From NCBI GenBank assembly GCA_016342455.1, contig JAEIOE010000024.1, positions 1-33,032 of the forward strand: DNA of 33,032 bases, in the 5' to 3' direction. The translations under genes were made by a program, and so were the position numbers. The notes under the pieces were generated by a model. It saw nothing but the letters and a program-made list of their open reading frames with translations. It searched no databases and was not told the origin of the DNA. This DNA is from Mycoplasmatota bacterium (GTDB taxonomy: Bacteria; Bacillota_I; Bacilli_A; Izemoplasmatales; Hujiaoplasmataceae). Below, in pieces: positions 9,669 to 32,413 of the stretch (position 1 is the first letter of the stretch; every line of letters starts with the position of its first letter).

Positions 9669-9987
9669 TCTTTTTTCCTCCCTTGTTTAATATAACATAT
9701 ACTCCACCTATAAATTGATCCCATTCATCTCTTAAACTAAGGTAATACTCAAACCCTTTTTTTGAGATATGGTAATACTTTCTAGGCGCTCCTGAACTCG
9801 ATTCTTTTAGATATGTCGTGAAATACCCTTCCTTGGTCAACCTACGCATAATTGGGTAGATTGTATTTTCATTGACATTTAAATGTTCTGATAAAGCTTT
9901 AATAATGCTATATCCATACATATCCTCAGGAATAAGCTCTTTTAATACGCATAATTCAATTATGCCTCTTTTGAATTGTGAATTCAT
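9622..9987 (-). CDS. PadR-family transcriptional regulator
   Basis: A 121-residue winged-helix regulator. The N-terminal PadR domain shows the pattern RGIIELCVLKELIPEDMYGY, the recognition region ENTIYPIMRRLTKEGY and the wing APRKYYHISKKG; a short C-terminal helix would form the dimer. PadR proteins repress their own operon and an adjacent effector gene. Its 3' end overlaps the DUF1700/DUF4097 gene by 47 bases, so the two are one unit. The promoter at 10007-10035 carries a perfect 14-bp palindrome in the spacer, a good candidate operator for autoregulation. SD AGGAGG is correctly placed. Confidence 0.9.
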   Translation of the reverse strand: MNSQFKRGIIELCVLKELIPEDMYGYSIIKALSEHLNVNENTIYPIMRRLTKEGYFTTYLKESSSGAPRKYYHISKKGFEYYLSLRDEWDQFIGGVYVILNKGGKKNEEVLERFRGRVEKE

Positions 9988-10006
9988 ATGCCCCTCCTAC
10001 CACAGC

Positions 10007-10035
10007 ATTATAACACAGTACTGTGTGTTGCACAA
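10007..10035 (-). promoter_or_regulatory. padR promoter with palindromic operator
   Basis: Minus strand: TTGTGC (10030-10035), 17-base spacer, TATAAT (10007-10012). The spacer is almost filled by the perfect inverted repeat ACACAGTACTGTGT (10013-10026). A dimeric repressor bound here would block RNA polymerase. Binding by the adjacent PadR protein is inferred. Confidence 0.7.
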
Positions 10036-10042
10036 TACCAAA

Positions 10043-10064
10043 TTAAAAAAAACACGTTTCCGTG

Positions 10065-10066
<2 letters not shown>
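10043..10066 (-). terminator. Intrinsic terminator of pyrG
   Basis: A 6-bp stem (10051-10056 with 10061-10066) with a GAAA loop on the minus strand, followed by a run of eight T. The stem overlaps the pyrG stop codon. Confidence 0.8.
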
Positions 10067-11733
<1,667 letters not shown>

Positions 11734-15257: not shown

Positions 15258-16194
15258 TGTTTTCCTCCAAAATTTTATCTAAATCACTTAATACTTTATC
15301 TGTGTCTTCCCAACTTTTTAATGTGCAGCCACAAGCCAACAAATGACCTCCACCGCCGTATTTTTTTGCGACACTTAGTACCGGTATACTTCTTGATCTG
15401 AGCTCACACATAATATTTGAGGTGTCTCTATCAATTGTGAAGTTAACCCACATCTTAACCTCGTCCATACCAGCCATTTGGTTCACTAAACCGCGACTAA
15501 CATAATAAGTGTCAAGATCATACTTATTTAGGAACTCAATATCATTTTTCCTATAAGCTACATTCTTTTCTGTATATTCAACGAGATTAAAGAATTCATT
15601 CTTAATCTGCTTTGACCTTCTTGGCTCTGAATACATATCATTATGTATTTGAGCGATGTCAGCACCGCTTTCAAGTAATATTGAAGCAATTCTAAATGTT
15701 TTAGCCGATGTGCTTGGATACATAAATCTTCCTGTATCTCCAATAATGCCCATATATAATGCTCTCGCTGATTCTTTATTAATAGGTATATTCTTTTCTA
15801 CTAAAAAATCCGCTACTATTTCAGAACACGATGATGCATCTTTAACTTGATAAGCTAAATCAAACGGAATATCAGGGTCATTCCTATGATGATCTATAAA
15901 TATTAGTTTACTATAATTTTTGTAAATTAAATCCTCAATAAGTGCTTTGGATACTGTATCCAAAATAATTAATAAAGATTTCTTATATACTTCTTCCGAT
16001 ACAATATCTAAATCTTGAAAACTATTCAGATTATTTGTATCCCCTATGGCATATATTTCCTTATTGGGATATTTTTCTTTTAATGCATAATATAAACCAA
16101 ATTGTGACCCATATGCATCTAAATCTGGGTTTTTATGTCTTGCTATAATTATTGTGCTATATTCTTCTATGTATTTTAAAATTTTATTTTTCAA
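15250..16194 (-). CDS. NrnA-like DHH/DHHA1 phosphoesterase (first of tandem pair)
   Basis: A 314-residue paralogue of the next gene, clearly diverged but with all motifs: RHKNPDLDAYGS (H20, D24, D26), LDTVS (D79), IDHH (D101-H103), GDTGRF (D153) and the DHHA1 glycine loop GGGGHLLACG. The expected activity is breakdown of very short oligonucleotides to mononucleotides in the cytoplasm. The start is TTG, chosen because GGAAGGTG lies 7 bases upstream and no ATG occurs before the first catalytic motif. Transcribed away from the endonuclease I gene across a 173-bp divergent promoter region. Confidence 0.87.
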   Translation of the reverse strand: MKNKILKYIEEYSTIIIARHKNPDLDAYGSQFGLYYALKEKYPNKEIYAIGDTNNLNSFQDLDIVSEEVYKKSLLIILDTVSKALIEDLIYKNYSKLIFIDHHRNDPDIPFDLAYQVKDASSCSEIVADFLVEKNIPINKESARALYMGIIGDTGRFMYPSTSAKTFRIASILLESGADIAQIHNDMYSEPRRSKQIKNEFFNLVEYTEKNVAYRKNDIEFLNKYDLDTYYVSRGLVNQMAGMDEVKMWVNFTIDRDTSNIMCELRSRSIPVLSVAKKYGGGGHLLACGCTLKSWEDTDKVLSDLDKILEENNG

Positions 16195-16367: not shown

Positions 16368-17507
16368 ATGCAAAATAAACTTAAAAAACTAGCGATATTT
16401 TTATTAGTAGCTTTAATGGCGATTATCGTTATTGGATGTGACAATTCAAATACAACAACCGAATTACAATCTACGGTAGGAATCACTACTTTACAAACAA
16501 CTTTAGAACAAACTACTGTACAAACCACTACTGAAGACGTGACTACCATTCAAACTACAACTGAAGATGTTACTACTCAACAAACTACTACAACCCAAAA
16601 TAGTGCCTATATTGGTATTGAAGTTACTGACATTACCCAAACTGAATATAATTTAGGAGAAGTGTTTAATTCTAATACTATTACTGTTTCGTTAGTTAGA
16701 GGAACAGAGGAAAGAGTATCACTTAACAGTGGAATATATAGTTTATCTGGATTTGACTCAAGTGTAGTTGGAGAACAAACACTTACAGTAAGTTATGTAA
16801 GTTTTACAACAACATTTACAGTAACAATTATAGATCCTAATCCTGACCCTGATCCTAATACAGATTTAGTGATTACAATGTCTTATTATTTCAGTGCACA
16901 AGATTTAGATGGTAGTGCCTTGTTTGATGAATTGACTTCAATCATTAATAATGGTTTTACTGGTGTTAGTTATGATGCTGCAAAATATGCTTTAGGAGAA
17001 TCAGATAAAGATCCAAATAACGCAAACAATATTATTCTTGTTTACTTAGGCACTTCAATTGATGCCTATAATCCAGACGGAAGTTGGACATACCCAGCCT
17101 GGAATAGAGAGCATGTTTGGCCGCAATCAGCTTTAGCTGGAGCATTTATGTCTGACCTTCAAAACTTAAAACCATCAGATGTTAACACAAATAGTTCTCG
17201 TGGTAATAAGTATTTTGACAACTATATGTCTTCAACCACTTGGGAACCAAGAGATGAAGTAAAAGGTGATATCGCAAGAATTATGTTATATATGATTACT
17301 AAATATACACAATTATCATTAGTAGATTCCGTACCTAATATTGGTAATGGCGAAATGGGGAAATTTTCAGTTCTGCTAGAATGGCACGAACAAGACCCTG
17401 TTGATGATTTTGAAAGAAATAGAAACAATGTAATTTATTCATATCAACATAATAGAAATCCTTACATTGATTACCCAGAATTCGTAGAAATGATTTGGGG
17501 AGAATAA
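16368..17507 (+). CDS. Endonuclease I-family lipoprotein (copy 1)
   Basis: A 379-residue secreted nuclease held on the membrane by lipid. The signal peptide ends in VIGC (C24). A Thr-rich linker (25-78) follows, with two 10-residue repeats encoded at 16521-16580. Next is an Ig-like (Big_3-type) domain at about 83-156, an Asp/Pro stretch (157-165), and the endonuclease I domain (about 168-376). The His-Me-finger motif is NREHVWPQS (H249 likely general base), followed by LKPSD, EPRDEVKGDIAR and NRNNVIYSYQHNRNP. Relatives (EndA, Vvn) cut DNA and RNA without sequence preference outside the cell. SD is GGGAG. It is monocistronic with its own promoter and terminator. Confidence 0.92.
   Translation: MQNKLKKLAIFLLVALMAIIVIGCDNSNTTTELQSTVGITTLQTTLEQTTVQTTTEDVTTIQTTTEDVTTQQTTTTQNSAYIGIEVTDITQTEYNLGEVFNSNTITVSLVRGTEERVSLNSGIYSLSGFDSSVVGEQTLTVSYVSFTTTFTVTIIDPNPDPDPNTDLVITMSYYFSAQDLDGSALFDELTSIINNGFTGVSYDAAKYALGESDKDPNNANNIILVYLGTSIDAYNPDGSWTYPAWNREHVWPQSALAGAFMSDLQNLKPSDVNTNSSRGNKYFDNYMSSTTWEPRDEVKGDIARIMLYMITKYTQLSLVDSVPNIGNGEMGKFSVLLEWHEQDPVDDFERNRNNVIYSYQHNRNPYIDYPEFVEMIWGE
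16521..16580 (+). repeat. Two 30-bp in-frame repeats in Thr-rich linker
   Basis: Two imperfect 30-base units (16521-16550, 16551-16580) encode QTTTEDVTTI and QTTTEDVTTQ in the lipoprotein linker of the first endonuclease. They could vary in number between strains. Confidence 0.75.
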
Positions 17508-17517
17508 AAACTATTAG

Positions 17518-17546
17518 GAAGTCAATCTAAATTGACTTCTTTTTTA
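17518..17546 (+). terminator. Intrinsic terminator between the two endonuclease genes
   Basis: A perfect 9-bp stem (17518-17526 with 17531-17539), 4-base loop and T-run, 11 bases after the first endonuclease stop. Confidence 0.85.
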
Positions 17547-17587
17547 TTGAAGGGATATAAAATAAATTTAAAAAAAGTGATACTTCA

Positions 17588-17596
17588 TGATATAAT
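17588..17596 (+). promoter_or_regulatory. Extended -10 of the second endonuclease I gene
   Basis: TGATATAAT at 17588-17596 after the upstream terminator; the -35 region is weak. It shows that the second nuclease gene has its own transcription start. Confidence 0.55.
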
Positions 17597-17631
17597 GATT
17601 AGACAAAATATAGAAGGAGATCATATAAAAA

Positions 17632-18756
17632 ATGGCAAGCAGATTAAGAAAGATTATAGCGTTACTATTAATAGTAATAGTTACCATTTCGATTGTTAGT
17701 TGTGATAAAACAGGAACTACTACAGCGACTGAAGTTACAACTCAACAAGAAACAACCTTACCGGCATCAACAACCAATACAGTAACCGTACCTACATCAA
17801 CAACTTATATTTCAACAACTTTTGAAATTACAACAACTAGGGAAATTATCGTATATACCGGCATTGAAGTCACAAAACAATATACTAGGTTCTTTGAAAT
17901 AGATGAAGCTTTTGATAACTCATCCTTTGAACTTGTTGCACATTTAAGTGACGGCTCTCAAGAAGTTATTTCTAGTGAGTTAATCAGAGTGCGTGGTTAT
18001 GATTCATCAACTGCGGGCGTTAAAAACTTATTTGTTACATTTGACCGATTCATAGTGGAATTATCTGTTATTGTTTTAAATGATTATGCGTTTGAAATAG
18101 ATATGGAATATTATGAAGATGCTATCAATTTAAAAGGCACTTATTTAAAAACTATTCTTAATAACATTATAAACGAAGGCTTCAATCCTCTCCTTTATGG
18201 ACAAGCACGAGATATTTTACAGGAATCTGATGAAGATCCAAGTAATCCTGATAACATTATGCTTGTATATACTGGATATTCAGTAGTTAGTACTTGGGAT
18301 GTCGGCGTGACTTGGAACAGAGAACATGTATGGCCTCAATCTAGATTAGGAGTTTCAGTTGGTTATCCAGATGACTTTGCAAGTATGGCGACAGACATAC
18401 ATAACTTGAAACCAAGTGACCCAGATGAAAATGCTTCAAGAAGTAATGATTACTTTAACACTATTGTAGGAAGTGATTTTTATGAACCAAGAGATGAAGT
18501 GAAGGGTGATATAGCACGTATTTTATTTTATATGACTACAATGTATCCTAGTCTTACATTAAATAATGACGAAACAACTTCATCAGCATACCTAACAATG
18601 GGAACTTTATCTGTATTACTTGAATGGAATCTTTTGGATCCAGTTGATGAATTCGAGATGAACCGTAATAATGTATTATATTCTTACCAAGGAAACCGTA
18701 ATCCATATATTGACTATCCTGGATTTGCTGATCTTATTTGGGGAGACATAGCTTAA
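17632..18756 (+). CDS. Endonuclease I-family lipoprotein (copy 2)
   Basis: A 374-residue paralogue of the preceding gene with the same layout: lipoprotein signal ending IVSC (C24), Thr-rich linker (about 27-70), Ig-like domain (about 76-148) and C-terminal endonuclease I domain. Catalytic motif TWNREHVWPQS (H232), then HNLKPSD, EPRDEVKGDIARI and NRNNVLYSYQGNRNPYIDYP. The Ig-like domains are more diverged than the nuclease domains, and the linker lacks the 10-residue repeats of copy 1. An AGAAGGAG SD lies 12 bases from the start, a little far. It ends at a terminator shared with the convergent giant LTD gene. Expected role: surface-bound, non-specific nuclease. Confidence 0.92.
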   Translation: MASRLRKIIALLLIVIVTISIVSCDKTGTTTATEVTTQQETTLPASTTNTVTVPTSTTYISTTFEITTTREIIVYTGIEVTKQYTRFFEIDEAFDNSSFELVAHLSDGSQEVISSELIRVRGYDSSTAGVKNLFVTFDRFIVELSVIVLNDYAFEIDMEYYEDAINLKGTYLKTILNNIINEGFNPLLYGQARDILQESDEDPSNPDNIMLVYTGYSVVSTWDVGVTWNREHVWPQSRLGVSVGYPDDFASMATDIHNLKPSDPDENASRSNDYFNTIVGSDFYEPRDEVKGDIARILFYMTTMYPSLTLNNDETTSSAYLTMGTLSVLLEWNLLDPVDEFEMNRNNVLYSYQGNRNPYIDYPGFADLIWGDIA

Positions 18757-18848: not shown

Positions 18849-21800
18849 TTAGTCAATCGTGTGAGTTCCTAAATCTGTCCAATCATCTTGAGTAACTTCT
18901 GTCCAATCATTAATATCAAATGTAGTTGAAGGTCCAGTTATGTTACTGTTTCTAATTAAAGTCATATCATCAATAACGTACTCGTTATTAGTATGTCCAA
19001 CGCTTAGAAGAATATCAATAATTACATCATTTTTTGTTAAAACAACACAATCATCTCCATTGAAATACGTTACTGTAGATGCTATATCTCCTGCATCAGT
19101 AATTGTAGCGACTGCTCCAGAATTATATACAACATATACTTCTCCAGGTGCTAAAGTTCCAGTTAATACTGTTGTATTCCCAGGTTCAGTTGCTCCATTA
19201 GAGTATAATACTACTTTATAAATTGATAAATCAATAGTTTCATTTGTAGGATTATATATTTCAAGATATTTATTACTTGAAGATCCATCAGCGTATTCAG
19301 ATATGAATAATTCTGTTGGTGCTGGAACGTCCATTGTATGAGTTCCTAAATCTGTCCAATCATCTTGAGTAACTTCTGTCCAATCATTAATATCAAATGT
19401 AGTTGAAGGTCCAGTTATGTTACTGTTTCTAATTAAAGTCATATCATCAATAACGTACTCGTTATTAGTATGTCCAACGCTTAGAAGAATATCAATAATT
19501 ACATCATTTTTTGTTAAAACAACACAATCATCTCCATTGAAATACGTTACTGTAGATGCTATATCTCCTGCATCAGTAATTGTAGCGACTGCTCCAGAAT
19601 TATATACAACATATACTTCTCCAGGTGCTAAAGTTCCAGTTAATACTGTTGTATTCCCAGGTTCAGTTGCTCCATTAGAGTATAATACTACTTTATAAAT
19701 TGATAAATCAATAGTTTCATTTGTAGGATTATATATTTCAAGATATTTATTACTTGAAGATCCATCAGCGTATTCAGATATGAATAAGTCGCTTACTGGT
19801 TCAACTACTGCCAAAGCGTCTACTGTAACTGCTATATCTACTGATACTGTAGTAGCCCCTTGCATTACTTCAATCGTTACTGTACCAACCGCTGCAACCG
19901 CAGGATTAGATAAGATGATTAAAGTTCCAGGAGTAGTAGTTTCATCAATATATGCCGTTATTTCAGCACTAACTGCTGTAACTGTAAATGTAGAACCATA
20001 TAATGCTGTTGGTAATACAAAATCTTCATCTAGTAATGTTAATGTTGCAGGTAATTGAGCAGCATCAGCATTTACTTTGTCAACTTCTCTTTGTTCGATT
20101 GTAACAACCTCAACTGAAAGGTCACTATTATAAAATTTACTAAATATAAATGTGAATTCTCCAGTCATGTCGCCTTCTTCAAATGCATCAAATACCCAAT
20201 CAGCAAAATTACTGCTGTGACCACTGATTTCGATTGAAGTTTCGCCAGTACCTCTTACGATAAACGTAGGATATCCACCAGCAGTTTTGAATTCAACGCT
20301 AGATATAGTAATTAATTTACCTGAATCTGCTGCTGTTAATGCGATAACTTGATCAGCTGTCATTAAAGTAGCTGTAACTGCGTTTGCAGAAGAAACAACT
20401 TTGACAACAACAGGATTCCAATCTAATTGTCTAACTCCACCAGAAGCTTCTAAAACACCAACAACAATTATTTCGTCACCTACAGCTAAATCTCCAAAAG
20501 TATTTCCAGAAATTTTAACACCAACACCGTTAGCGTCAGCTAAGTATAAAGCGTTGTATCCTTTTGCACTAACAACACCTTGAATATAAACTGTAACACC
20601 ATCCGCTACGTCCCATACGTCTGCAACAGTTTGAGTGTAAATTCCTGAGAAGTCAGTTGTAACTGTATATCCAGTAACCGCAACAGTAAAGTCTTTTGTT
20701 ACAGCAACTTCGGCACCTATAGTTAATGATGCTTGTAATACTACATCAGCGTCAGCTGCTGCAGCATCAAATACTAATGTTTTACCATCTACATCTAATG
20801 TAGCGGCTCCTGAAACTACAGTCCAAACGACTGTAGATCCAAGTTCACCCATAAGTGGTAATTCAACTGTTTGTTGTGCAAAAGCTGTTAATTCAACTTC
20901 TAAAGAAGCTTGATCAGCAGCTAATTTTTCAGCATCTGTCATTCCATCTAATGTGATAGCTACAACAACGTCTAACGTTGCAGCATTTAAAGTTAATGTA
21001 AATGTAACATTTCCAGTAACATCTCCGTTAGGTAATGTAACTGTTAAACTGTTACTTGCAGTTAAAGCGTCTACTAAATACGCTTGTAATTCTGTAGCAA
21101 TTGCAACTGTTGTTCCAGTAGCATATGCTAAATCAGGAAGCATATAATCAGTAGTTATAGTAACTGCTGCTTCAAATTTCGCTGCATCAACAGCTAATAA
21201 TTCAGCATCTGTATAAGGAGTACCTTCAGTAATAACTGTAGTATCTGTCATGAAGAAACGAGCTCCGTCGTACCAACCTAAACCGGCAGCTATTGTTACT
21301 TTATCTCCAACAGCAAGTCCGCTTAATGCAGCGGCTGCTGCAGTTGATAATGTAATTCTTGAATCCCATTTCATTTGAATAATAGCTCCGTCGCTAAGTC
21401 TAACGAATTCACCATAGAAGTTACCATATCCGCCATCATTAGCATCTACACTAAGAACATATAAATCAGTAAATTCAACTAACATATTTTGGTAATCTAT
21501 AAAGTCTGCTTCATCTACTGCATCTAAATTAGTTGCTGCAGGTAATGTTGATACTTCCACTAATGTTATAGTGTCAGGTGTAACTTGTAATAAACCGTGA
21601 TATGAAGCTCTATTACCTATAAGTTCTACTTTGTTACCAATATTTGCTTGTAAGAAAGTTTCTAAAGTAGTATTACTTGTATAAATTGAAATACCGCCAG
21701 TTGCATCTTGAATCATATAAGTATTATAGTATTCATCAGCAATAACAATACCTTGTATCATTACTTTTGTGCCATCAGCTAGTGCTTGTGCTTCGGCGGC

Positions 21801-23477
21801 TGTTGATAAAGGTAAAACCCCAACAGTTATAACAATTGTTTTTGTGTCTATTACTGAGCCTTTAGTCGCTGTAACTGTGATTGTTACATCTACTTGAGTA
21901 GTTAGGGTTGATAAATCAACCATACCAGTTGCAGGATCAATAACTACTGCATTATCAGAAGCAAATGTTAATGCAACACCATAAACTGATGCAAACATAT
22001 CTAATGTTGTGTTTTCAACTATTTCCGCAGGATACATAACAGAAGCTAATGCTGCAGCTACTGCTGTTGCGTCATCCGCGAATACAACAGAAAGATTTTC
22101 AGCTGTTCCAAAGAAGTTTGCATAGTAAACTGATTTGTCAGTTCTATATCCTTGAGTAAGAATAGTAAGAGTTACTTCTTTTTGATGTAATGTAGATAAA
22201 ACGTCCATATTAGATTTGTAATAAATCATAATACAATCGCCATTAGGTTGTGTTGCTCCATCAGCTAATGCAGCTGAGAAGTCATAATCTAAAGGTACTA
22301 AGAATACTGAATAGTTACCCCAATCTTCATTTACATAAATTTTAGCAGTTACTTCATAATATTCATATGCCCATGGGTTATCTGTTGAAGGTTGTGTTAA
22401 CCCAGAAATTAAAGCGATAAGTGAAGCTGGTGTATTTACAGGTGCTGCTACTGCGGCAACTGTTGAAGCAACAGCTACAAGTGGATGCTCAGTAGTTCCT
22501 TGTAATTGTGGAGAGTTATAATAATATGTAAATTCTCCTGTTACATCAATTACATCACCAACAGCTACTACGAATGTAGGGCTGTAAACATAAAGTAAAT
22601 CCGTTCCATCAGTGAAGAATACATTTCCACTGCTGTCTATGTCTGTTACTGTAACGCCAGTAATTTGAACATATTCACCTGCGCCAACTACTGCAGCTGC
22701 TGCAATTGTAGTTACAACTGTAGCAGCTTCAATTTTAGCGATTGTGAATACAACATCTTTTGTAAAGTCAACACCATTAATAGTGATTGTTGCAGTCATT
22801 GTAACAACTACATCAGCACCCATAGGTTGAACGATGTCACCATCTATTGATAAATTAGCAGGAAGAGATGAAGTCCATACAACTGTATAGTCTACGTCAT
22901 CTGCGTCTTTACCTGTAGTTAAGAATTCTAAAGTAGCTTCGTCTGCAACTGTCCATTTTTCTTTTGAAGGGAAAGCTGTAACAACTAAGAATACTTCGTT
23001 TGCTCTTTCTAAATCTGTTTTGTCAAGAGCTTTAACTGTTACGAAGAATCCATAACTTTCAGTGTCAGTACCATCTGTTACAGAAGCAGTTAATACAACT
23101 GTTTGATTTCCTGTTGTATAACTAGGTCTATGAATAGTACCATCATTTTCTAAATACGTTGCATTACTACTAGTCCAAGTGATCGCAAAATCACTAACTG
23201 TAGCAACCAAAGTCAAGTTTTCAGTAGCTAAGAAATTAACATCTTCTAACGTTGTTGCATATTGTGTTTTAAGATTGTCAATTAAAGTTGCTAAATCAAC
23301 AGGTGCTACTGTTGTAGGTGCCACAGTAGTCGGTGCTACTGTCGTAGGTGCTACAGTAGTTACTCCTGCAGTAGTTTGCGCTGCAGTTGTTGTTGCCGTT
23401 GTTGTAGTATCTTCTACACAAGCTACAAGGAATAATCCCAATAAAGCCATAAGTGCAATTCCAAATACTTTTCTCAT
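18849..23477 (-). CDS. Giant multidomain surface lipoprotein (Ig-like, OB-fold-like, two LTDs)
   Basis: A 1542-residue lipoprotein (lipobox LVAC, C20) with a linker holding four VAPTT units. About residues 60-250 hold two atrophied Ig-like domains. OB-fold-like stretches follow at about 268-335, 370-460, 571-640, 662-750, 962-1028 and 1050-1128, typified by VYIQGVVSAKGYNALYLAD and VGDEIIVVGVLE. These alternate with Ig-like segments (465-553, 765-938, 1135-1222). Two lamin-tail domains end the protein (about 1230-1382 and 1389-1542) and are almost identical. OB folds of this type and LTDs occur in secreted nucleases such as YhcR- and ExeM-like enzymes, but I see no catalytic domain. I infer a DNA-binding or adhesive surface protein. 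SD AAGGAGG, 12 bases from ATG. Confidence 0.85.
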   Translation of the reverse strand: MRKVFGIALMALLGLFLVACVEDTTTTATTTAAQTTAGVTTVAPTTVAPTTVAPTTVAPVDLATLIDNLKTQYATTLEDVNFLATENLTLVATVSDFAITWTSSNATYLENDGTIHRPSYTTGNQTVVLTASVTDGTDTESYGFFVTVKALDKTDLERANEVFLVVTAFPSKEKWTVADEATLEFLTTGKDADDVDYTVVWTSSLPANLSIDGDIVQPMGADVVVTMTATITINGVDFTKDVVFTIAKIEAATVVTTIAAAAVVGAGEYVQITGVTVTDIDSSGNVFFTDGTDLLYVYSPTFVVAVGDVIDVTGEFTYYYNSPQLQGTTEHPLVAVASTVAAVAAPVNTPASLIALISGLTQPSTDNPWAYEYYEVTAKIYVNEDWGNYSVFLVPLDYDFSAALADGATQPNGDCIMIYYKSNMDVLSTLHQKEVTLTILTQGYRTDKSVYYANFFGTAENLSVVFADDATAVAAALASVMYPAEIVENTTLDMFASVYGVALTFASDNAVVIDPATGMVDLSTLTTQVDVTITVTATKGSVIDTKTIVITVGVLPLSTAAEAQALADGTKVMIQGIVIADEYYNTYMIQDATGGISIYTSNTTLETFLQANIGNKVELIGNRASYHGLLQVTPDTITLVEVSTLPAATNLDAVDEADFIDYQNMLVEFTDLYVLSVDANDGGYGNFYGEFVRLSDGAIIQMKWDSRITLSTAAAAALSGLAVGDKVTIAAGLGWYDGARFFMTDTTVITEGTPYTDAELLAVDAAKFEAAVTITTDYMLPDLAYATGTTVAIATELQAYLVDALTASNSLTVTLPNGDVTGNVTFTLTLNAATLDVVVAITLDGMTDAEKLAADQASLEVELTAFAQQTVELPLMGELGSTVVWTVVSGAATLDVDGKTLVFDAAAADADVVLQASLTIGAEVAVTKDFTVAVTGYTVTTDFSGIYTQTVADVWDVADGVTVYIQGVVSAKGYNALYLADANGVGVKISGNTFGDLAVGDEIIVVGVLEASGGVRQLDWNPVVVKVVSSANAVTATLMTADQVIALTAADSGKLITISSVEFKTAGGYPTFIVRGTGETSIEISGHSSNFADWVFDAFEEGDMTGEFTFIFSKFYNSDLSVEVVTIEQREVDKVNADAAQLPATLTLLDEDFVLPTALYGSTFTVTAVSAEITAYIDETTTPGTLIILSNPAVAAVGTVTIEVMQGATTVSVDIAVTVDALAVVEPVSDLFISEYADGSSSNKYLEIYNPTNETIDLSIYKVVLYSNGATEPGNTTVLTGTLAPGEVYVVYNSGAVATITDAGDIASTVTYFNGDDCVVLTKNDVIIDILLSVGHTNNEYVIDDMTLIRNSNITGPSTTFDINDWTEVTQDDWTDLGTHTMDVPAPTELFISEYADGSSSNKYLEIYNPTNETIDLSIYKVVLYSNGATEPGNTTVLTGTLAPGEVYVVYNSGAVATITDAGDIASTVTYFNGDDCVVLTKNDVIIDILLSVGHTNNEYVIDDMTLIRNSNITGPSTTFDINDWTEVTQDDWTDLGTHTID
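18862..19310 (-). repeat. 449-bp direct repeat, copy 1 (second LTD)
   Basis: Identical by eye over 449 bases to 19339-19787 (offset 477 bases = 159 codons). It encodes the C-terminal lamin-tail domain of the giant lipoprotein. Confidence 0.93.
19339..19787 (-). repeat. 449-bp direct repeat, copy 2 (first LTD)
   Basis: The partner of 18862-19310. The identity includes synonymous positions, so duplication or gene conversion was recent. A 28-base spacer encoding the short linker MDVPAPTEL lies between the copies. Confidence 0.93.
23302..23361 (-). repeat. Four 15-bp repeats encoding VAPTT linker
   Basis: Four imperfect 15-base units in frame (23302, 23317, 23332, 23347) encode the Thr-Pro linker just after the lipobox of the giant lipoprotein. 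Confidence 0.85.
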
Positions 23478-23528: not shown

Positions 23529-23564
23529 AAAATCTAATTTAATACTCTTTCTGAGTTAGATTTT
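23529..23564 (-). terminator. Weak hairpin at 3' end of the binding-protein gene
   Basis: A 9-bp AT-rich stem (23529-23537 with 23556-23564) spans the end of the solute-binding lipoprotein gene and is followed on the minus strand by T-rich sequence. It may partly end transcription and lower expression of the giant gene. No promoter for the giant gene is clear in 23478-23533. Confidence 0.4.
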
Positions 23565-25399
23565 GCCGCCGCAATTGCGTTGTCAATAATCTCTTGTTTC
23601 GTTGTTCCTTCTAAAGCTCCAAGAATAACTCTTTCAAAAGCTACCTCAACTTCAGCTCTAGCATTTGATGAACCGATAAATGCTTGATCATAGAATAAAT
23701 AATCTGATTGAAGTGCAGCAGCATTTGCTGCTCTAGATTTCATTAAATCTTCACCAGCTAAATCATTTCCTGCAGCATCTTGACCTTGTCTAAATAATAC
23801 ATAAATTGGATCATCATAACAAGTGTTTCTTACAGGTGAATAACCAGTTTCTAAAGCAAAGTCTAATTGAACTTCCATAGAAGTTAAATATTTCAAGAAT
23901 AACCATGAAGCTAATTTTTCTTGGTCATCTCCAGCAGTAGTAATTGACATATTAGTTCCTTGTTGGATAGCTGTTCTTGATTCTGGCATATCTGCATTAT
24001 AAGGCATTGGTACTACACCAAATTCAAATACGAATTCGTTATCAACAACGTTAGGAGTATTATATCTTGCTCCACCAGTTGAACCAAACGTTACTGCTGT
24101 TTGTCCAGTTTTAAATGCATCTGATGCATATTCAATTCCCCAAATACCAGGTAATGTGAATGCAGTGTCTCTGTTATCAAAGAAATAACTCAACATAGAT
24201 CTTGTTCCATCATTGTCAAATAAAATTAAACCGTTTCTTGAAGAATCAATTCCTGTATATTCTCCACCCCATTGTCTCGTTAAAGTAATAAATGCATTTG
24301 CAGGTGAATCATAAGTAATAGGAACAAAGTTATCTTTAATAGCTTGAATTTCTGTAGCATCTTTATGTAAAGATATCGTAGATGATGAATTAAGTTTATT
24401 AGTAATACTTGTGATTACTTCATCTTTAATTAACATTAAATCATCCGCTATAGCAAATAACCCTTGCCAAGTTGTAGGAACTTCATCAATCACACCATCT
24501 TCAATTAACATATCAAACATCGTTTTGTTATAAATCATAACTTCAGTTGATTTGTTAAAAGGTAATGAATAATATTCACCATCTGGTGTATATTGTGAAT
24601 TTTCTTGTCTATAACTTAATAGTATATCTAAGAAAGATTCTGATTCTACATCATTATTGTATCCAAAAGTTGGATTTGAAATATATGGTGTAAGAGAAAT
24701 CAACGCTTGATTATCGATATACTCCATTACGTGGTCTGGATAGTTTTGAACGATATTAGGGATTTGTCCACCTCTAATAGCATTAATAACGTTTTGACGT
24801 AATTCATCATAATTGTTCCCGTTTTTAATAATATTCACTGTAACATTAGGATATAAAGCGGTAAACTCTGCAGCATAATCTGTTAAAGCGCCTTCAACAG
24901 TAGCTCCGTTTGAATGCCATAAATCAATAGTAATAGGATCAGAAGTTAAAGCAGTAGGAATAGTATAACCGTTTAAATCTTTTACAGTCAACACGATTTC
25001 TTCTGTAACAATATTTCCATCACTATCTACAGCGTAAGCGTAAATGGTATAAGTACCAACTCTAGTAGTTGTATACGCACCTTCCACTTGAATTTCTAAT
25101 TCGCCGTCTTCTGGGTCAATAGCTGTTGCTCCAGCTAATAAATCCAAAGTTTGTGAACCACGATAGTAAGTTTGTTTTGTAAACAGTCCTCTGAATAAAG
25201 GCATTTCTCCTGGGTCTTCTTCAGTGGTAGTTTGGATTTGTGTACCACCAGTTGTAACGTTGCTCAGCGTAGTTTCTGCTTGCGTAGTAGTCGCTTGATT
25301 CGTTGTCGTTGCTGTTGTTGATGCTTTATCACAACTAACTACAATGAATGCTGAGAAAATTAACATTACAATTGTTAAAAATTTCTTATTAAATTTCAT
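23534..25399 (-). CDS. ABC transporter solute-binding lipoprotein (CUT1-like)
   Basis: A 621-residue extracytoplasmic binding protein. The signal ends VVSC (C23), followed by a Thr-rich linker (24-62) and an Ig-like DUF5011-type module at about 66-140 (TAIDPEDGELEIQV ... VGTYTIYAYAVDSDGN). The extracellular solute-binding family 1 domain runs from about 155 to the end (ITIDLWHSNG at its start; later YSLPFNKSTEVMIYN and GTNMSITTAGDDQEKLASWLFLKYLTS). Such proteins usually bind sugars, oligosaccharides or glycerol phosphates. It belongs to the ABC set encoded upstream. The genes around it are nucleases and DNA-binding-like proteins, so a nucleic-acid-derived ligand is worth considering. SD AGGAGGAGGAG is very strong. 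The stop is TAG. Confidence 0.9.
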   Translation of the reverse strand: MKFNKKFLTIVMLIFSAFIVVSCDKASTTATTTNQATTTQAETTLSNVTTGGTQIQTTTEEDPGEMPLFRGLFTKQTYYRGSQTLDLLAGATAIDPEDGELEIQVEGAYTTTRVGTYTIYAYAVDSDGNIVTEEIVLTVKDLNGYTIPTALTSDPITIDLWHSNGATVEGALTDYAAEFTALYPNVTVNIIKNGNNYDELRQNVINAIRGGQIPNIVQNYPDHVMEYIDNQALISLTPYISNPTFGYNNDVESESFLDILLSYRQENSQYTPDGEYYSLPFNKSTEVMIYNKTMFDMLIEDGVIDEVPTTWQGLFAIADDLMLIKDEVITSITNKLNSSSTISLHKDATEIQAIKDNFVPITYDSPANAFITLTRQWGGEYTGIDSSRNGLILFDNDGTRSMLSYFFDNRDTAFTLPGIWGIEYASDAFKTGQTAVTFGSTGGARYNTPNVVDNEFVFEFGVVPMPYNADMPESRTAIQQGTNMSITTAGDDQEKLASWLFLKYLTSMEVQLDFALETGYSPVRNTCYDDPIYVLFRQGQDAAGNDLAGEDLMKSRAANAAALQSDYLFYDQAFIGSSNARAEVEVAFERVILGALEGTTKQEIIDNAIAAAKSNSERVLN

Positions 25400-25435
25400 A
25401 TTCTCCTCCTCCTAAATAATAAAGTCTTCATTTAT

Positions 25436-25441
25436 ATTATA
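25436..25441 (-). promoter_or_regulatory. Candidate -10 for the binding-protein gene
   Basis: TATAAT on the minus strand in the 105-base AT-rich gap upstream of the binding-protein gene; the -35 is not clear. An extra promoter would allow more binding protein than permease to be made, as is common. Confidence 0.4.
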
Positions 25442-25504
25442 ATATATTTCTATATATATTAAAGCCTTAAAAATTATAAAAAACTTTCTTTTCTAAATAT
25501 TTCT

Positions 25505-26050
25505 TTAAGATGCTTCGTCTACAACAATAATTTGTCCCGAAATTTGAGTCTGTGCTCCCTCTTCGTCTTGAACTACCATTGTAAAATTTAAATCTACTCC
25601 TAAAACTTGTACTAAGAAAATTTTTCCTGAATCATATACTTTGTTTCCGTCAACATCAGTTTTTGTCTCTCCGATGTATTCTAAATCTGCATCGTCAACT
25701 ACACCATCAAAATTCGCGTCATCTCCTTCTAGCCAAATAGCATAGAAAGATGTTATTTCAAAATTATCAGAAATATCGACATAATCTCTGTTTTGTCCCC
25801 AAATAACTCCCGTTTGATCATAATCAATAGCTATTATATGTTGATCATTAATAATGTTTTCAATCATATCATCCGGATGAAAGTCAGTTCCTTTTACGTG
25901 TTCATAAGTTATTGATTTTATTTTTACTAATTCTCCGTCAACCACTTGAACTATTTGTGGAGACATATTTTGTACGTCTTTACAACCAATCATAACTAAA
26001 GATAAACAAATCATTAAGACAAATATTCCAATTTTTTTAATTTTCATCAT
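25505..26050 (-). CDS. Small lipoprotein with EF-hand/dockerin-like loop
   Basis: A 181-residue lipoprotein, signal ending MIGC (C23). I do not recognise the family. It contains a calcium-loop-like segment DDANFDGVVDDADLEYIG (D-x-N-x-D-G pattern), as in EF-hands and dockerin repeats, and a second short Asp-rich stretch TDVDGNKVYDSG. The rest looks beta-rich and acidic. I start at ATG 26050, with AGAGGGGG 6 bases upstream; a longer reading into the permease gene has no SD. It lies 10 bases after the second permease gene, within the ABC unit, so it may help the binding protein or dock another surface protein. Function unknown. Confidence 0.75.
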   Translation of the reverse strand: MMKIKKIGIFVLMICLSLVMIGCKDVQNMSPQIVQVVDGELVKIKSITYEHVKGTDFHPDDMIENIINDQHIIAIDYDQTGVIWGQNRDYVDISDNFEITSFYAIWLEGDDANFDGVVDDADLEYIGETKTDVDGNKVYDSGKIFLVQVLGVDLNFTMVVQDEEGAQTQISGQIIVVDEAS

Positions 26051-26060
26051 ATTCCCCCTC

Positions 26061-27518
26061 TTAACCTTTAGTTCCTGATCTACCAATTCCATTCATAATG
26101 TATTTTCTAAACATGAAGAATACAACTAATAATGGGACTGTAACCAATGTAGATGCCGCAATTTGAAGGTTATACATAACTCGTCCATTATCCAGAACGA
26201 ATGCAGTATCTCTTAAGGCATTTGAAATTAACCAATAAGCCTGTCCTTCTTGACCACCAACACCTGTAATGATTCTTGGCCATATATATGCGTTCCATGA
26301 ACCAAATACATTAAGGATAGTAATAGTAAAGATTGTTGGAGAAGCGATAGGTACCATAACTCTCATCAAGAATTTTAAGTCACTACAGCCATCAACACGA
26401 GCTGCTTTATATAACGATTCTGGAACTTGTTTAAAGCTTTGTCTTAAGAAGAATATATACGATATGCTCGTAACGAATGGAAGTATCATAGCTAAGAAAT
26501 AGTTATTTTCTCCAGTAGGCATACCTACCCATCCAAATCCGTTCTTACTTACTGTAATAAAGTTAGTAATAATATATAATTCCCCAGGAATCATCATTGT
26601 CATAATTAGGATTGAGAATAATATCTCTCTCCCTTTGAATTCAATTCTAGCAAATGCATACGCAGCTAATACTGTTGTAAGAATAGTACCAGCTGTTGAG
26701 AATAATGCTACAATTACGGTATTTCTAATATATAAGCCAAAGTTAAGTTCTGTTAGTACAACTTTATAGTTAACCCAATTCATTCTTGAAATGCTAATAA
26801 AGAATTTTGGTGTAGCTGTAGTTGCCCCAGAGAAATCTTTTAACGAAGTAATTATCATCCAATAAAATGGAATAATGATAATTAAAGCCATAAACACTAA
26901 GAAAATATATGTAAATAACAATCTAAGTGCATTAGCAGCGTTTTGTCTTCTAATACTTGTTTTAATTGAAAGCGAGTATTCATCAAGACCTTCGGTATTT
27001 TCTTTTACTTTCTTTGTAAATAGTCTTTTAAAATAAGCTTTTACTGCGGGTACAATACTCTTTAAGAATTCTTTTGCATCGTAACCTTTTACAAATTTAA
27101 CTAATATAAACATGTTATATATTCTTAATCCAGCACTTATTGGATTAAATGATAGTAAATTAATAATACCTTGAAAGAATTTAGAACCGGCTACATAAGA
27201 ATCAACTTCATAAATAGTTCTTATCTTTACTTTCTTCAAGTTAATGAAAAACATCGGAACAGCAACAATTGTAAATACAACACTTAACGAAATGATTGTA
27301 TTCATTTGCCATTTATCAAGCGTTGAACCTAAAAATTGGTAGATTGGCTCCATGTATTGAAGAATATCCAAATCCATGCTTCCATTAACAACTTCTGGTA
27401 ATTCCAGTAATTTAAATAATATTAAGAAAAGAGAAATATAGATTACAATAGCTATAAAATCAACGAACAAAGTCCATCTTTCAAGCTTATTTGATTTTTC
27501 AAATAATTGTTTATTCAT
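26061..27518 (-). CDS. ABC transporter permease, MalG type, with long N-terminal extension
   Basis: A 485-residue inner-membrane permease of the carbohydrate CUT1 class. The MalG-like core occupies about residues 198-485 with six membrane segments. The EAA loop that contacts the ATPase is at about 368-393 (ESLYKAARVDGCSD ... MVPIASP). The first ~195 residues are an extra region with about two to three membrane segments (around 17-38, 74-93, 117-142) and a basic cytoplasmic stretch (160-192); usual MalG proteins are about 280 residues. The gene starts 15 bases after the MalF-type gene, with SD GGGGGAG. The substrate is not deducible from the sequence. Confidence 0.9.
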   Translation of the reverse strand: MNKQLFEKSNKLERWTLFVDFIAIVIYISLFLILFKLLELPEVVNGSMDLDILQYMEPIYQFLGSTLDKWQMNTIISLSVVFTIVAVPMFFINLKKVKIRTIYEVDSYVAGSKFFQGIINLLSFNPISAGLRIYNMFILVKFVKGYDAKEFLKSIVPAVKAYFKRLFTKKVKENTEGLDEYSLSIKTSIRRQNAANALRLLFTYIFLVFMALIIIIPFYWMIITSLKDFSGATTATPKFFISISRMNWVNYKVVLTELNFGLYIRNTVIVALFSTAGTILTTVLAAYAFARIEFKGREILFSILIMTMMIPGELYIITNFITVSKNGFGWVGMPTGENNYFLAMILPFVTSISYIFFLRQSFKQVPESLYKAARVDGCSDLKFLMRVMVPIASPTIFTITILNVFGSWNAYIWPRIITGVGGQEGQAYWLISNALRDTAFVLDNGRVMYNLQIAASTLVTVPLLVVFFMFRKYIMNGIGRSGTKG

Positions 27519-27533
27519 ATTATCACTCCCCCC

Positions 27534-28616
27534 TTAATAATGGACGCGTCTTTTGCTTGCTTGCATTTGAACTAATGTAAGCACCAAAATTATCGCGAAC
27601 AATATTAATGATCCGGCTGCGGCTACAGATAAATTACCTGCGTTACTTCCGTCAATGAATTGATAAATATACATTACAATTGATTGTAAGTTATAATCCA
27701 CACCAGCAGGAGCACCAGACACACCAAATAATGCAACAATCGAGTTATAGATCTTAAAAGCACCAATAACTGACGTTACTAAAATATAAAATATCATTGG
27801 TGAAATTAGCGGAACAGTGATTTTTGAGAATATTCTTCCTCTAGGAGTAGCGTCAATAGCTGCTGCCTGATAGTATTGTTTATCAATACCTTGAATACTC
27901 GTCAAGAACACCATAATTTTAAATGCTAATGTCGACCAAATACTATAAAAAATTAATACAAACATAGAGCGCCAATAAACTGCTCCACTCTCTACCCAAG
28001 AGAGTCCCTCTACATTCACTCCAAATAGGCCTAAAAATTGATTAACCAAACCACCATCCGTTCTAAACATATATGCAAATACTAACCCAATCGCAATTGT
28101 GTTAGTTACATAAGGTAAGAAATATATCGTTTGGAAAAAACTTTTTAAAGGTTTAATTGTATTTAGAGCTGCCGCAATAAATAAAGCGAGTAAAACTGAG
28201 ATAGGCACGCTGATGAAAACGATAATTAAAGTATTAATTACTGCACTTGAAGCTGTATGTGACGCTGGAACAATAAATGATTCATCAGTCAATACGGTAA
28301 TAAAATTCCCGAATATTGTATATCCTGTAACTGTTTCTGTAGTCATATTATAGTTTTGATAAACTACTAAAGCAAAAGAGTTAATGATTGGGTAGAATGT
28401 AAATACCATCAATACAATTAAAGCCGGTGACAGATATAACAAAGCTTTTGCCCAATTAGGAAATCTTGTTACAAAATTGATATTGTGCTTATCTAAAAAA
28501 TCGCCAAATCTATTTTTGATATTAGTAAACAAACGTCTAACATTCCAAAAGAATGTTTTTATCGCGTTTAAAATCTTACCAAAAAATGCTATGACGCTAT
28601 TTTTAAGATTAGCCAT
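27534..28616 (-). CDS. ABC transporter permease, MalF type
   Basis: A 360-residue inner-membrane permease partnering the MalG-type protein. A basic amphipathic N-terminus (1-50) precedes six membrane segments starting about residue 57. The EAA loop lies at about 248-273 (QYYQAAAIDATPRGRIFSKITVPLISP, where the Gly of the classical motif is replaced by Ala). Its start overlaps the ATPase gene's stop by 8 bp (ATGGCTAA), a sign of coupled translation and equal amounts. Family members import sugars or glycerol-3-phosphate-like molecules. Confidence 0.9.
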   Translation of the reverse strand: MANLKNSVIAFFGKILNAIKTFFWNVRRLFTNIKNRFGDFLDKHNINFVTRFPNWAKALLYLSPALIVLMVFTFYPIINSFALVVYQNYNMTTETVTGYTIFGNFITVLTDESFIVPASHTASSAVINTLIIVFISVPISVLLALFIAAALNTIKPLKSFFQTIYFLPYVTNTIAIGLVFAYMFRTDGGLVNQFLGLFGVNVEGLSWVESGAVYWRSMFVLIFYSIWSTLAFKIMVFLTSIQGIDKQYYQAAAIDATPRGRIFSKITVPLISPMIFYILVTSVIGAFKIYNSIVALFGVSGAPAGVDYNLQSIVMYIYQFIDGSNAGNLSVAAAGSLILFAIILVLTLVQMQASKRRVHY

Positions 28617-29667
28617 GGTTAACTACCTTTCCTGTTTCCTTATCAAATAGGTATATTCTACTTTCTTTAATTGACAAGTGAACAACTTTATCTTCACTGC
28701 TGATATCATCTGAATCAACTAAGGCTCTCACATTTTGACCATTAAAATCGAAATGCACCATTGTATCTCTACCAATATGGTAAATATCCTTAACGTCAAC
28801 ATCAAATCCCTCAGCAACAGCGCGGAAATTTTCAGGTCTCATACCAATATCATATAAGGCATCAGGAACTTTAATTTTCATGAATTTTTTATCATTTATC
28901 ATTAAATATCCTTTTTTAACTTCTGCTTCAAAAGTATTGATTGGTGGATTCCCTAAGAATTTACCAACAAATAAGTTTCCGGGATCTGTATACATTGATT
29001 GTGGAGAAGCATATTGTTGTTTAACTCCAAAATCAAGAACAACCATTTTATCTGAAATACTCATAGCCTCTTCTTGGTCATGGGTAACAAAAATAGTTGT
29101 AATTCCTGTTTCTCTTTGAATACGTTTAATTTCTTCACGCATTTGTAATCTAAGTCTTGCATCTAGATTAGATAAAGGTTCATCTAGAAGAAGTACTCTA
29201 GGTTTTTTAACAAGTGCTCTCGCAATTGCAACACGTTGTTGTTGACCACCAGATAATTGTGATGGTTTTCTATCCAACAACTCACCGATTCCAACAAGAT
29301 TAGCCATTTCTTTAACTCTTTTAATAGCTTCATCTTTAGGAACATCAAGGTTTTCAAGTGGGAATAAAATGTTATTAAACACTGTCATATGAGGATATAA
29401 TGCATAGTTTTGGAAAACTAAACCAATCCCTCTTTTTTCGGGTGCTAGCTTTGTAACATCATCATCTCCAAAGAAAATTTTCCCTGAAGTTGGTTTTTCT
29501 AATCCTGCGATCATAAATAATGTTGTAGATTTACCACAACCAGAAGGACCTAATAATCCTACTAATGTACCAGACTCAATCGTGATGTCTAGGTTTTTAA
29601 CAGCCGTAGTTTCAATCCCGGTTCTGTTAGTGAAAATTTTAGTCAAATTTTCTAGTCTTAATTCCAT
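28609..29667 (-). CDS. ABC transporter ATPase, MalK/UgpC/MsmX type
   Basis: A 352-residue ATPase energising the two permeases. Walker A GPSGCGKST (residues 40-48), Q-loop Q86, signature LSGGQQQR (138-145), Walker B VLLLDEP (158-164), D-loop SNLD and the switch H196 in VTHDQEEA. The C-terminal part (about 235-352) is a TOBE/MalK-like regulatory domain. All catalytic residues are intact. SD AGGAGGAAAG is close to ATG. The gene follows the bitopic membrane protein by 26 bases with no terminator, which ties the transporter to the thermonuclease unit. Confidence 0.93.
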   Translation of the reverse strand: MELRLENLTKIFTNRTGIETTAVKNLDITIESGTLVGLLGPSGCGKSTTLFMIAGLEKPTSGKIFFGDDDVTKLAPEKRGIGLVFQNYALYPHMTVFNNILFPLENLDVPKDEAIKRVKEMANLVGIGELLDRKPSQLSGGQQQRVAIARALVKKPRVLLLDEPLSNLDARLRLQMREEIKRIQRETGITTIFVTHDQEEAMSISDKMVVLDFGVKQQYASPQSMYTDPGNLFVGKFLGNPPINTFEAEVKKGYLMINDKKFMKIKVPDALYDIGMRPENFRAVAEGFDVDVKDIYHIGRDTMVHFDFNGQNVRALVDSDDISSEDKVVHLSIKESRIYLFDKETGKVVNHG

Positions 29668-29693: not shown

Positions 29694-30488
29694 TTAATCT
29701 TTTTGATTAATTGAATGTCTTTTTTTCTTTTTAAAATATACTAGATACGTCGTAACGATTAATGTTGCGAAATAAATCCCCATTGCTATATAGAATATAT
29801 GTACATAATCATCTGCTACATGTGTTTGATTAGGATATATATTATTCAATGCCATATCACTTACATCATTTATATCTGGAATTCTTGTAAATTCATCATA
29901 AAAACTTTCTATATAGTCTTTAATAACGAAATCTGATTCTTCTATTGTAAACGCTGTGCTCATAATGTTTTGATCATCACTGCTTACAAGATAAATTCGG
30001 TCATAATTTCCAGCCATTACATCGTCTTTAGGTATATAAACATTGCCATATTCTTCATTTACTGCATTTAATAAAAATAAAGTTTTAAATCTTTGTAAAT
30101 TAATATCTATCGTTGCTTCGGTTGTTTGATTTTCCAAATATAGATAGTCAATAACAGAAAGATCTTCTGTTTCAGAATATATCAGTAAGTAAATGTATTC
30201 ATGAACGATTAGATTGTTATTATTATCAAAACTTGTTTTAGCCACTTCATAACCATATATTTCATAACCCTCAGCTACTATTTCTATAACTGGTTGATCG
30301 TTATGAAAATCAGGAATTGATGAATAAAAATAATAATACTTTGGTAATTCTGAACTTGTATCTGTAAGAGATTGTCCAAATACTTCTTCAACGTATTTAG
30401 ATAACATCAAATCTCTTGAATATGTAAATGCAAGCAGGAAAAACCCAACCGCAACTAACGAATACAGCATTCGTCCAAAAACTCTCAT
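29694..30488 (-). CDS. Bitopic membrane protein of unknown function
   Basis: A 264-residue protein I do not recognise. One membrane segment lies near the N-terminus (about 7-23) and one near the C-terminus (about 233-252), followed by a basic tail KKKKRHSINQKD. The ~210 residues between them would lie outside the cell and are acidic and Tyr-rich. Its ATG overlaps the thermonuclease gene stop by one base (TAATG), so translation is coupled. It is sandwiched between the nuclease and the ABC ATPase. A role in placing the nuclease next to the transporter is possible, but nothing in the sequence proves it. Confidence 0.8.
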   Translation of the reverse strand: MRVFGRMLYSLVAVGFFLLAFTYSRDLMLSKYVEEVFGQSLTDTSSELPKYYYFYSSIPDFHNDQPVIEIVAEGYEIYGYEVAKTSFDNNNNLIVHEYIYLLIYSETEDLSVIDYLYLENQTTEATIDINLQRFKTLFLLNAVNEEYGNVYIPKDDVMAGNYDRIYLVSSDDQNIMSTAFTIEESDFVIKDYIESFYDEFTRIPDINDVSDMALNNIYPNQTHVADDYVHIFYIAMGIYFATLIVTTYLVYFKKKKRHSINQKD

Positions 30489-32413
30489 TATTCGTGAACG
30501 CCTAATCCGTTATCACTAGCGAATCTTTCAGCTTCTTGGAACCACCTTACGATATATCTATTATTAAACGTTAATGTTGACTCTCCATAATAATTGTATG
30601 AGTAACCATTTAATACTAAATAATAGTTTAATAATACCCACCCAGTTAACGTTTCTGTTCTCATTACAGTTACACCATCACTAGCTTTAATATCTATGCT
30701 TAATACTTGAGTTCCTAAATCAACCCAAACTAATCCTAAATGTCTACCATAACCACCAGTATATCCGATATCGGGGTCACTTTGAATATAAATTCTTTCT
30801 GCACTATTAAGTATTAATGTTGTAAATGCTTTTCCTTCTAGTCCCCAGTCTTGTACGACAGGATAAGTTTCTGGTGTATCAACACCTAAGAACCTAACTC
30901 TATCGTCACCCATGAATCCGGGAGTGAAAGCTGCAGTATCTCCATCATTAATAGTTGATAAAGTAACTAAATCCATTCCTCCAAGAGGGTCATCGAATCC
31001 TCTTGTTGTAATATTTATAGTGATTTTTTCTGGCAATGCTATAGGATGAGTTCCTATTATTTCAATATAAGTTGGAATAAAGCCGTTCCATTGACTAAAA
31101 ATATAATCTCTAGTTCCAGTAACCACTGAAGAATTTCTGACAAAGATTTCGTTATCCATGATAAAGTCTTTGTTTCCTATATTATATATGCTATCAATAT
31201 ATGTACCATTTGAATAGCATATTTGAATCGTATCGTTTCCATCAAATCGTAAGTCTGCAGACGTTAAATCTGCCTTTACTAAGATATTTGCATTCGCGCT
31301 TGAATTAGCAATGACAAACGTTTCGCCAGGAGCTAATGTAACAGCTCCAAATTGAATTTGATAAGTCATATTTAATGATCCATTTGCGTAGATTGCCAAA
31401 TAATAGTCTGCTAAGTCAATATCTGAATCTGTTGCGTTAAAGATTTCTATTGCTTGATCACTAGTAGCATCTCCACCATCTACATATTTAGATATGATTA
31501 AACTAGTTGAATTGCTCGTAAATGTATTTTTATATAAAGTAACTGTTATACTTCCTTCATCGTAATAATCTCCAATACTCATATCTTTATAAGTAAAGAA
31601 AATATCTTCTGTAAAATTATCATCTATATGATAATCAAATGTATACAATATATTCAAATCAGTTAGAACTTCTTCAATTTCTTCTTTAATCATTCCTGAT
31701 AAATCCGGAAGTTGAGTTTGGTTATAACCTAAATAGATTGTTACTTTAAAAGTACTTGGAACTAAAGAGCCTATTACCAAAGAATCTCCATAGCCACTAA
31801 ATGTTTTATCTGGAACGGTATTATCTGTAATTACTTCCATTTTAAAACTAATACCTAGTTGTAACATCTCTGTAATTATTTCTTTATCTGTTTTACCAGT
31901 TAAATCAGGAAGTACATTTCTAGTTGTTGCTATATTAACAACAACTTCGTGATTATCACTATAAGTTGTTCCCACTTGATCATCGTTTGCATAACCTAAA
32001 AAGTTATCTTCTGTAACATCTTGATTTGTCACATATTTAAATGAAAAGTTAATACCTAAATCATTCAATATTGTAGTTATCTCTGATTTTGTAATTCCTG
32101 TTAACTCAGGTAATTCTGGGTAATTAATTGAAAAATATAATGTAATATCAACATTTTCTTCAACAGATGAACCGGCGATTAAATCATTTCCATATCTAAC
32201 AAATAAACCGTCTTCAATTGTTTCGCTTTCTTCATACAATACGTTCAAAATAACAGGAATTTCAGAAAATGCCTGTTGTGTTTCTTCTACTGTAAGTCCC
32301 AAAACGCTTGGTAAATCATAAGTATTAATTGTTGAAGACGTATCTTCTCCGCATGAAACAACAAATAAAAGTAATGTTGATAATAAAAATAATCTTATAA
32401 TCTTTTTAAACAT
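30488..32413 (-). CDS. Lipoprotein thermonuclease with four PASTA repeats and an LTD
   Basis: A 641-residue surface lipoprotein (VVSC, C21). Residues 31-298 form four PASTA-like repeats, each starting with a [LP]P-[DES]-LxG-type segment (LPSVLGLT, LPELTGIT, LPDLTGKT, LPDLSGMI). A lamin-tail domain follows at about 303-457 (AIEIFNATDSDIDLADYYL), related to the two LTDs of the giant lipoprotein. The C-terminal staphylococcal nuclease domain (about 462-641) has NDGDT, RVRFLGVDTPE (R507, D512, E515, matching the SNase Arg, Asp and Glu) and YGRHLGLVW (R557, second catalytic Arg). All key residues are present, so an active calcium-dependent DNA/RNA nuclease is expected. First gene of the nuclease-transporter unit; SD GAGGAG. 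Confidence 0.92.
   Translation of the reverse strand: MFKKIIRLFLLSTLLLFVVSCGEDTSSTINTYDLPSVLGLTVEETQQAFSEIPVILNVLYEESETIEDGLFVRYGNDLIAGSSVEENVDITLYFSINYPELPELTGITKSEITTILNDLGINFSFKYVTNQDVTEDNFLGYANDDQVGTTYSDNHEVVVNIATTRNVLPDLTGKTDKEIITEMLQLGISFKMEVITDNTVPDKTFSGYGDSLVIGSLVPSTFKVTIYLGYNQTQLPDLSGMIKEEIEEVLTDLNILYTFDYHIDDNFTEDIFFTYKDMSIGDYYDEGSITVTLYKNTFTSNSTSLIISKYVDGGDATSDQAIEIFNATDSDIDLADYYLAIYANGSLNMTYQIQFGAVTLAPGETFVIANSSANANILVKADLTSADLRFDGNDTIQICYSNGTYIDSIYNIGNKDFIMDNEIFVRNSSVVTGTRDYIFSQWNGFIPTYIEIIGTHPIALPEKITINITTRGFDDPLGGMDLVTLSTINDGDTAAFTPGFMGDDRVRFLGVDTPETYPVVQDWGLEGKAFTTLILNSAERIYIQSDPDIGYTGGYGRHLGLVWVDLGTQVLSIDIKASDGVTVMRTETLTGWVLLNYYLVLNGYSYNYYGESTLTFNNRYIVRWFQEAERFASDNGLGVHE

Follow-up and report, generated by a model that had tools for sequence, protein, structure and literature searches.

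PASTA domains are best known from cell-wall sensing, and finding them in a genome often serves as an indication of wall biology. The repeats of wall-associated PASTAs have a canonical P-x-x-G motif in their C-terminal half. In kinases the PASTA arrays take the form of linear rods; muropeptide binding is not intrinsic to the domain and depends on local residues (PMC3601408). LTDs occur at the amino terminus of secreted DNases of the ExeM/Xds type, which combine LTD, OB and EEP domains with a C-terminal rhombosortase signal. Deletion of the LTD of ExeM slows DNA degradation and does not abolish it (PMC6085458). Loci for DNA degradation were described in 'Candidatus Izemoplasmatales' by Wasmund 2021 (PMC8289736) and by Zheng 2021 (PMC8397711), whose strain Xianfuyuplasma coldseepsis zrk13 degrades DNA, grows on DNA and induces such a cluster. 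These loci group extracellular nucleases including a thermonuclease, a giant LTD protein, ABC and phosphate transporters, and phosphodiesterases. PASTA is not mentioned in the main text of either paper, and the locus of zrk13 (genome G020) has a different SNase set from the one reported below.

The window analysed here, a stretch of 33,032 nucleotides taken as a whole, comes from a 2.43 Mb genome (97.8% complete) that belongs with 'Candidatus Izemoplasmatales' (Tenericutes). The named organisms closest to it are MAGs of 'Candidatus Izemoplasmatales'/Tenericutes and strain zrk2. The window holds a complete DNA-scavenging locus of the published Izemoplasma 'DNA-degradation locus' type, headed by a nuclease gene that corresponds exactly to one ORF (30488-32413, minus strand, 641 aa, ATG start). 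The encoded protein runs from a lipobox signal through four PASTA repeats and one LTD to a C-terminal SNase domain. This is the arrangement behind a lipid anchor proposed by the sequence-only reading, and it holds up in Pfam, in a profile built from the lineage's own PASTA repeats with which the copies were delimited, in the AlphaFold model and in the invariance of Cys21. The parts of the gene are:

32351..32413, minus strand: signal peptide and lipobox ...LLFVVS|C, aa 1-21 (sequence)
32120..32314, minus strand: PASTA repeat 1, the most diverged copy (lineage PASTA profile, E 1.6e-13)
31913..32113, minus strand: PASTA repeat 2 (lineage PASTA profile, E 6.7e-27; Pfam PASTA)
31715..31912, minus strand: PASTA repeat 3 (lineage PASTA profile, E 9.5e-25)
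31520..31711, minus strand: PASTA repeat 4 (lineage PASTA profile, E 8.4e-21)
31148..31507, minus strand: LTD, aa 303-422 (Pfam, E 1.2e-16; NCBIfam ExeM match; profile bounds)
30491..31033, minus strand: SNase domain, aa 461-641 (Pfam SNase; lineage profile; PDB alignment; Foldseek)

Pfam scores exceed the cut-offs for PASTA (41.5 bits vs 23.2), LTD (61.5 bits vs 34.3) and SNase (25.1 bits vs 21, E 2.5e-5). The SNase match is short because a lineage-specific insertion around aa 570-590 splits it; the C-terminal part of the domain is present. D490, D492, R507, E515 and R557 are invariant in a 42-member SNase alignment, D512 and T513 are nearly invariant in the PASTA-LTD-SNase sets, and in the alignment with staphylococcal nuclease the conserved residues fall on its DGDT, R, DTPE and YGR stretches. 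Compared with the PDB, the AlphaFold model (mean pLDDT 81.6) matches best S. aureus PrkC and M. tuberculosis PknB, in their PASTA regions, and then staphylococcal nuclease, to which the SNase part aligns in Foldseek with a TM (target) of ~0.8. The model, as a prediction, confirms the PASTA and SNase folds. A profile score over the curated cut-off, the OB fold and the catalytic and metal-binding residues assign the protein to the SNase family, with predicted nuclease activity. A signal peptide with a lipobox cysteine, invariant in 13/13 aligned orthologues, makes it a putative lipoprotein by the sequence criterion used for bacterial lipoproteins.

The protein shares its SNase domain and catalytic residues with the staphylococcal nuclease/thermonuclease family, from which it differs by the insertion in the C-terminal half, the LTD, the PASTA array and the lipid anchor. 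With the ExeM/Xds-type nucleases it has in common the plan of a secreted DNase with an LTD on the amino-terminal side, and the NCBIfam ExeM model (aa 22-161, E 3.4e-17) matches the LTD through its LTD part alone (61.8 of 1300 bits). However, the catalytic domain is SNase and not the EEP domain that defines ExeM/NucH members, and a lipid anchor and PASTA array are found in place of the C-terminal rhombosortase signal. The tandem, linear PASTA fold is that of PrkC, PknB and PASTA PBPs, whereas here there is no kinase or transpeptidase, no wall and no P-x-x-G motif, and the array carries a nuclease.

The nuclease gene is accompanied by the following genes:

29694..30488, minus strand: 264-aa protein with hydrophobic segments at both ends, a conserved partner (ORF, synteny)
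23534..29667, minus strand: ABC transporter with a UgpC-like ATPase, two permeases, a 195-aa protein and a solute-binding lipoprotein (Pfam, NCBIfam, synteny)
18849..23477, minus strand: giant secreted 1542-aa protein with aBig_2 repeats, an OB-type region and two C-terminal LTDs (Pfam, NCBIfam)
16368..18756, plus strand: two EndA-like Endonuclease_1 proteins with Big_3 domains
14301..16194, minus strand: two DHH/DHHA1 (NrnA-like) oligonucleotide phosphodiesterases (NCBIfam)
12549..14228, minus strand: Na/Pi cotransporter with PhoU domains

Secreted nucleases, a giant LTD protein, ABC and phosphate transporters and phosphodiesterases are thus co-located, as in the published loci, and relatives show the same succession of nuclease, 264-aa protein, ATPase, permeases, solute-binding protein (SBP) and giant protein. 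The gene of the 264-aa protein, which has no Pfam match, overlaps the nuclease stop codon by one base and stands next after the nuclease in each of the 11 orthologue loci that include flanking sequence. The 1542-aa giant is related to ExeM in its non-catalytic part, and neither Pfam nor NCBIfam finds an EEP nuclease domain in it. The kind of secreted nuclease and the type of locus are already known; what is new is a variant at the level of architecture. It brings an undescribed, predicted surface enzyme into the machinery with which abundant sediment bacteria scavenge DNA.

The genomes support a wall-less state of the host lineage, which the sequence-only reading had thought probable. PBP transpeptidase, FtsW/RodA and MraY were not found in the host genome and 20 relatives (21 genomes), in searches whose controls responded. 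The sole Mur-ligase-fold match of the host genome is a 419-aa FolC-like gene adjoining valS, as in the relative G002, and was rejected as evidence of a wall; there is no full peptidoglycan pathway. Hanks kinases are nearly absent. Microscopy of zrk13 agrees with the wall-less state (PMC8397711).

SNase genes are found in 74 of the 90 genomes of the order. By a hand tally combining the match places of the lineage PASTA profile with domain calls, the PASTA-LTD-SNase form occurs in 15/34 genomes of the family, counting a G022 copy broken by stops, and an SNase with one PASTA in 12/34. The G022 gene (L044:7205-8477) is split over frames and is either decayed or an assembly error. Among 395 genomes sampled from the class, the architecture appears outside the family in 14 genomes of two further families (f12 and f16), the named relatives carrying genes of this type being Acholeplasmatales. 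The combination, taken at first as an unusual one, is therefore family-wide and not a singular oddity; it is widespread among nucleases of Izemoplasmatales and Acholeplasmatales, although no description of PASTA, LTD and SNase together was found in the searchable literature. No transpeptidase was found in any of the 14 f12/f16 genomes and each has one or two Mur-ligase-fold genes, which indicates that they are wall-less too. A fifteenth outside copy lies on a 5-kb contig of the walled G209 and is 68% identical to the copy of the wall-less G098. A strict restriction to wall-less bacteria was rejected on account of this copy, which is a doubtful exception attributable to transfer or mis-binning. 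A further, non-exhaustive scan of the whole collection (84,980 genomes) relied on two SNase peptide patterns alone. The LTD form is a feature of wall-less lineages, with G209 as the one doubtful exception, and its carriers always encode it as a predicted secreted nuclease.

The SNase tree has two paralogue clades. All SNase domains of PASTA-LTD-SNase and LTD-SNase proteins fall in one supported clade, whose sister is formed by PASTA-SNase proteins without LTD and takes in copies from the walled family f10 (G146, G154). The f10 copies sit in the same kind of locus, in genomes that encode PBPs and carry 7-8 genes for Mur ligases; wall loss as such therefore did not produce the PASTA-SNase fusion. 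The walled f10 member G146 (Bacilli) encodes PASTA1-SNase and PASTA3-SNase proteins (L221:4791-5876 and 9308-10696) in a DNA-degradation locus near recA and rny.

Within the 34 family genomes the lineage profile places PASTA in SNase genes with few exceptions: one solute-binding protein (G007), the G022 gene pieces and a contig-edge fragment (G025). A match at G000:C35:74043 was discarded as chance, as it sits in a nucleotide-sugar dehydrogenase-like ORF. A whole wall-less lineage thus keeps PASTA almost solely on secreted nucleases and the domain persists without its supposed ligand, which makes the lineage a clean natural test of the role of PASTA where no peptidoglycan is made.

The repeats themselves differ from wall-associated PASTAs. 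Among 160 nuclease PASTA repeats, a set that includes some redundant copies of the same locus, F-x-x-Y is present in 151, and P-x-x-G stands at its wall-associated position in one. The division PBP of the walled G146, encoded beside murE, retains Q-S-P-Q-P-G (Q-S-P-x-P-G); the nuclease PASTAs of this genome have FIRY...AGD in place of this motif, and the nuclease PASTA profile does not match the PBP. F-x-x-Y repeats therefore mark a separate nuclease PASTA subfamily, judging by their motifs, even where a wall exists.

Building on the directly established domains, conserved catalytic residues, fold, wall-less genome and conserved locus, we privilege as quite probable the hypothesis that the 641-aa protein is a surface lipoprotein nuclease feeding on extracellular DNA, with a PASTA stalk, an accessory LTD and delivery of products to the co-encoded uptake system. 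A lipid-modified Cys21 would tether it to the single membrane of the wall-less cell and the four PASTA repeats would form an elongated stalk. The SNase domain, once exported, would cut environmental DNA with the LTD as an accessory domain beside it, as in ExeM-type nucleases. Other secreted nucleases could trim the products further for uptake by the co-encoded ABC transporter, while the NrnA-like enzymes would handle oligonucleotides and the Na/Pi transporter phosphate. By analogy with ExeM the role of the LTD is likely accessory; the domain may be involved in catalysis or in membrane association and not be a passive module.

The PASTA array is most likely a plain spacer or stalk. This is its simplest reading, favoured because copy number varies (2 to 5 in these nucleases), because aBig_2 or MBG modules occupy the same N-terminal place in some nucleases and can replace PASTA, and because known PASTA arrays are linear. 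The Cys-to-LTD distance ranges from 143 to 361 aa, and an offsetting of repeat number by linker length was rejected as the two do not correlate (Spearman -0.02). Two observations go against the stalk: total length is not constant, and the sequence conservation of repeats 2-4 in the orthologue alignment exceeds the needs of a passive spacer. A ligand or partner is thus possible. It could be that the F-x-x-Y PASTAs form a distinct subfamily whose ligand is not the cell's own peptidoglycan (for instance a protein partner, nucleic acid or debris of foreign walls), so that the array does more than space out the domains and takes part in the work of a DNA-feeding complex at the surface, a proposal that we consider rather unlikely.

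Among more specific versions, the array could dock a partner in a surface degradosome passing products to the transporter, the likeliest candidates being the ABC SBP and the 264-aa membrane protein, whose gene is translationally coupled to that of the nuclease. The constant place of the 264-aa gene after the nuclease speaks for such docking, with a 20% identical homologue found even beside the distant G209 copy, as does the SBP-SNase fusion encoded by zrk2. However, the number of repeats varies freely, and we consider this hypothetical interaction improbable. We give a similarly slim chance to an array that binds nucleic acid or helps to present DNA to the SNase domain. The near confinement of PASTA to nucleases in the family and the conservation of repeats 2-4 would fit it, but the repeats are strongly acidic (mean net charge -12.4 per 100 aa, with ~1% of the 160 not negative) and no DNA-binding PASTA was found in the literature searched. 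Net charge was rejected as a decisive test, since the SNase domains are acidic as well (-6.0 per 100 aa). The sequence-only reading had held that without a wall the repeats must serve as a stalk or bind something else, such as DNA: variable copy number and replacement by Ig-type modules fit the first part, and the second is unsupported, if by a weak test.

Even less probable is a binding of foreign peptidoglycan, by which the wall-less cell would attach to the DNA-rich remains of lysed walled bacteria. Kinase PASTAs can bind muropeptides and related PASTA-SNase proteins exist in the walled f10, but binding depends on local residues (PMC3601408), the nuclease repeats carry F-x-x-Y and almost never P-x-x-G, and in G146 Q-S-P-x-P-G is kept by the division PBP and not by the nuclease PASTAs. 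Sensing of the cell's own peptidoglycan is very unlikely, since the pathway is missing and PASTA has no such polymer to read; of two features expected of peptidoglycan-binding PASTA proteins, peptidoglycan in the organism is absent, and the P-x-x-G motif is nearly so among the nuclease repeats. A literature search for PASTA domains of Mollicutes that do not bind peptidoglycan returned nothing useful.

Two relatives show further gene arrangements. The cultured strain zrk2 (G023:C1), which also has an orthologue of the 641-aa nuclease (L089), encodes a 1318-aa secreted protein (L046:7812-11768) made up of cohesin, dockerin, ABC solute-binding, aBig_2 and SNase domains, bringing nuclease and uptake receptor together in a single chain. 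G003, of the same genus as the window, has the locus without PASTA4-LTD-SNase and carries instead an SNase with a single PASTA that belongs to the other paralogue clade (L042:8815-10296). The latter gene stands downstream of the SBP, so that two alternative locus layouts exist in one genus.
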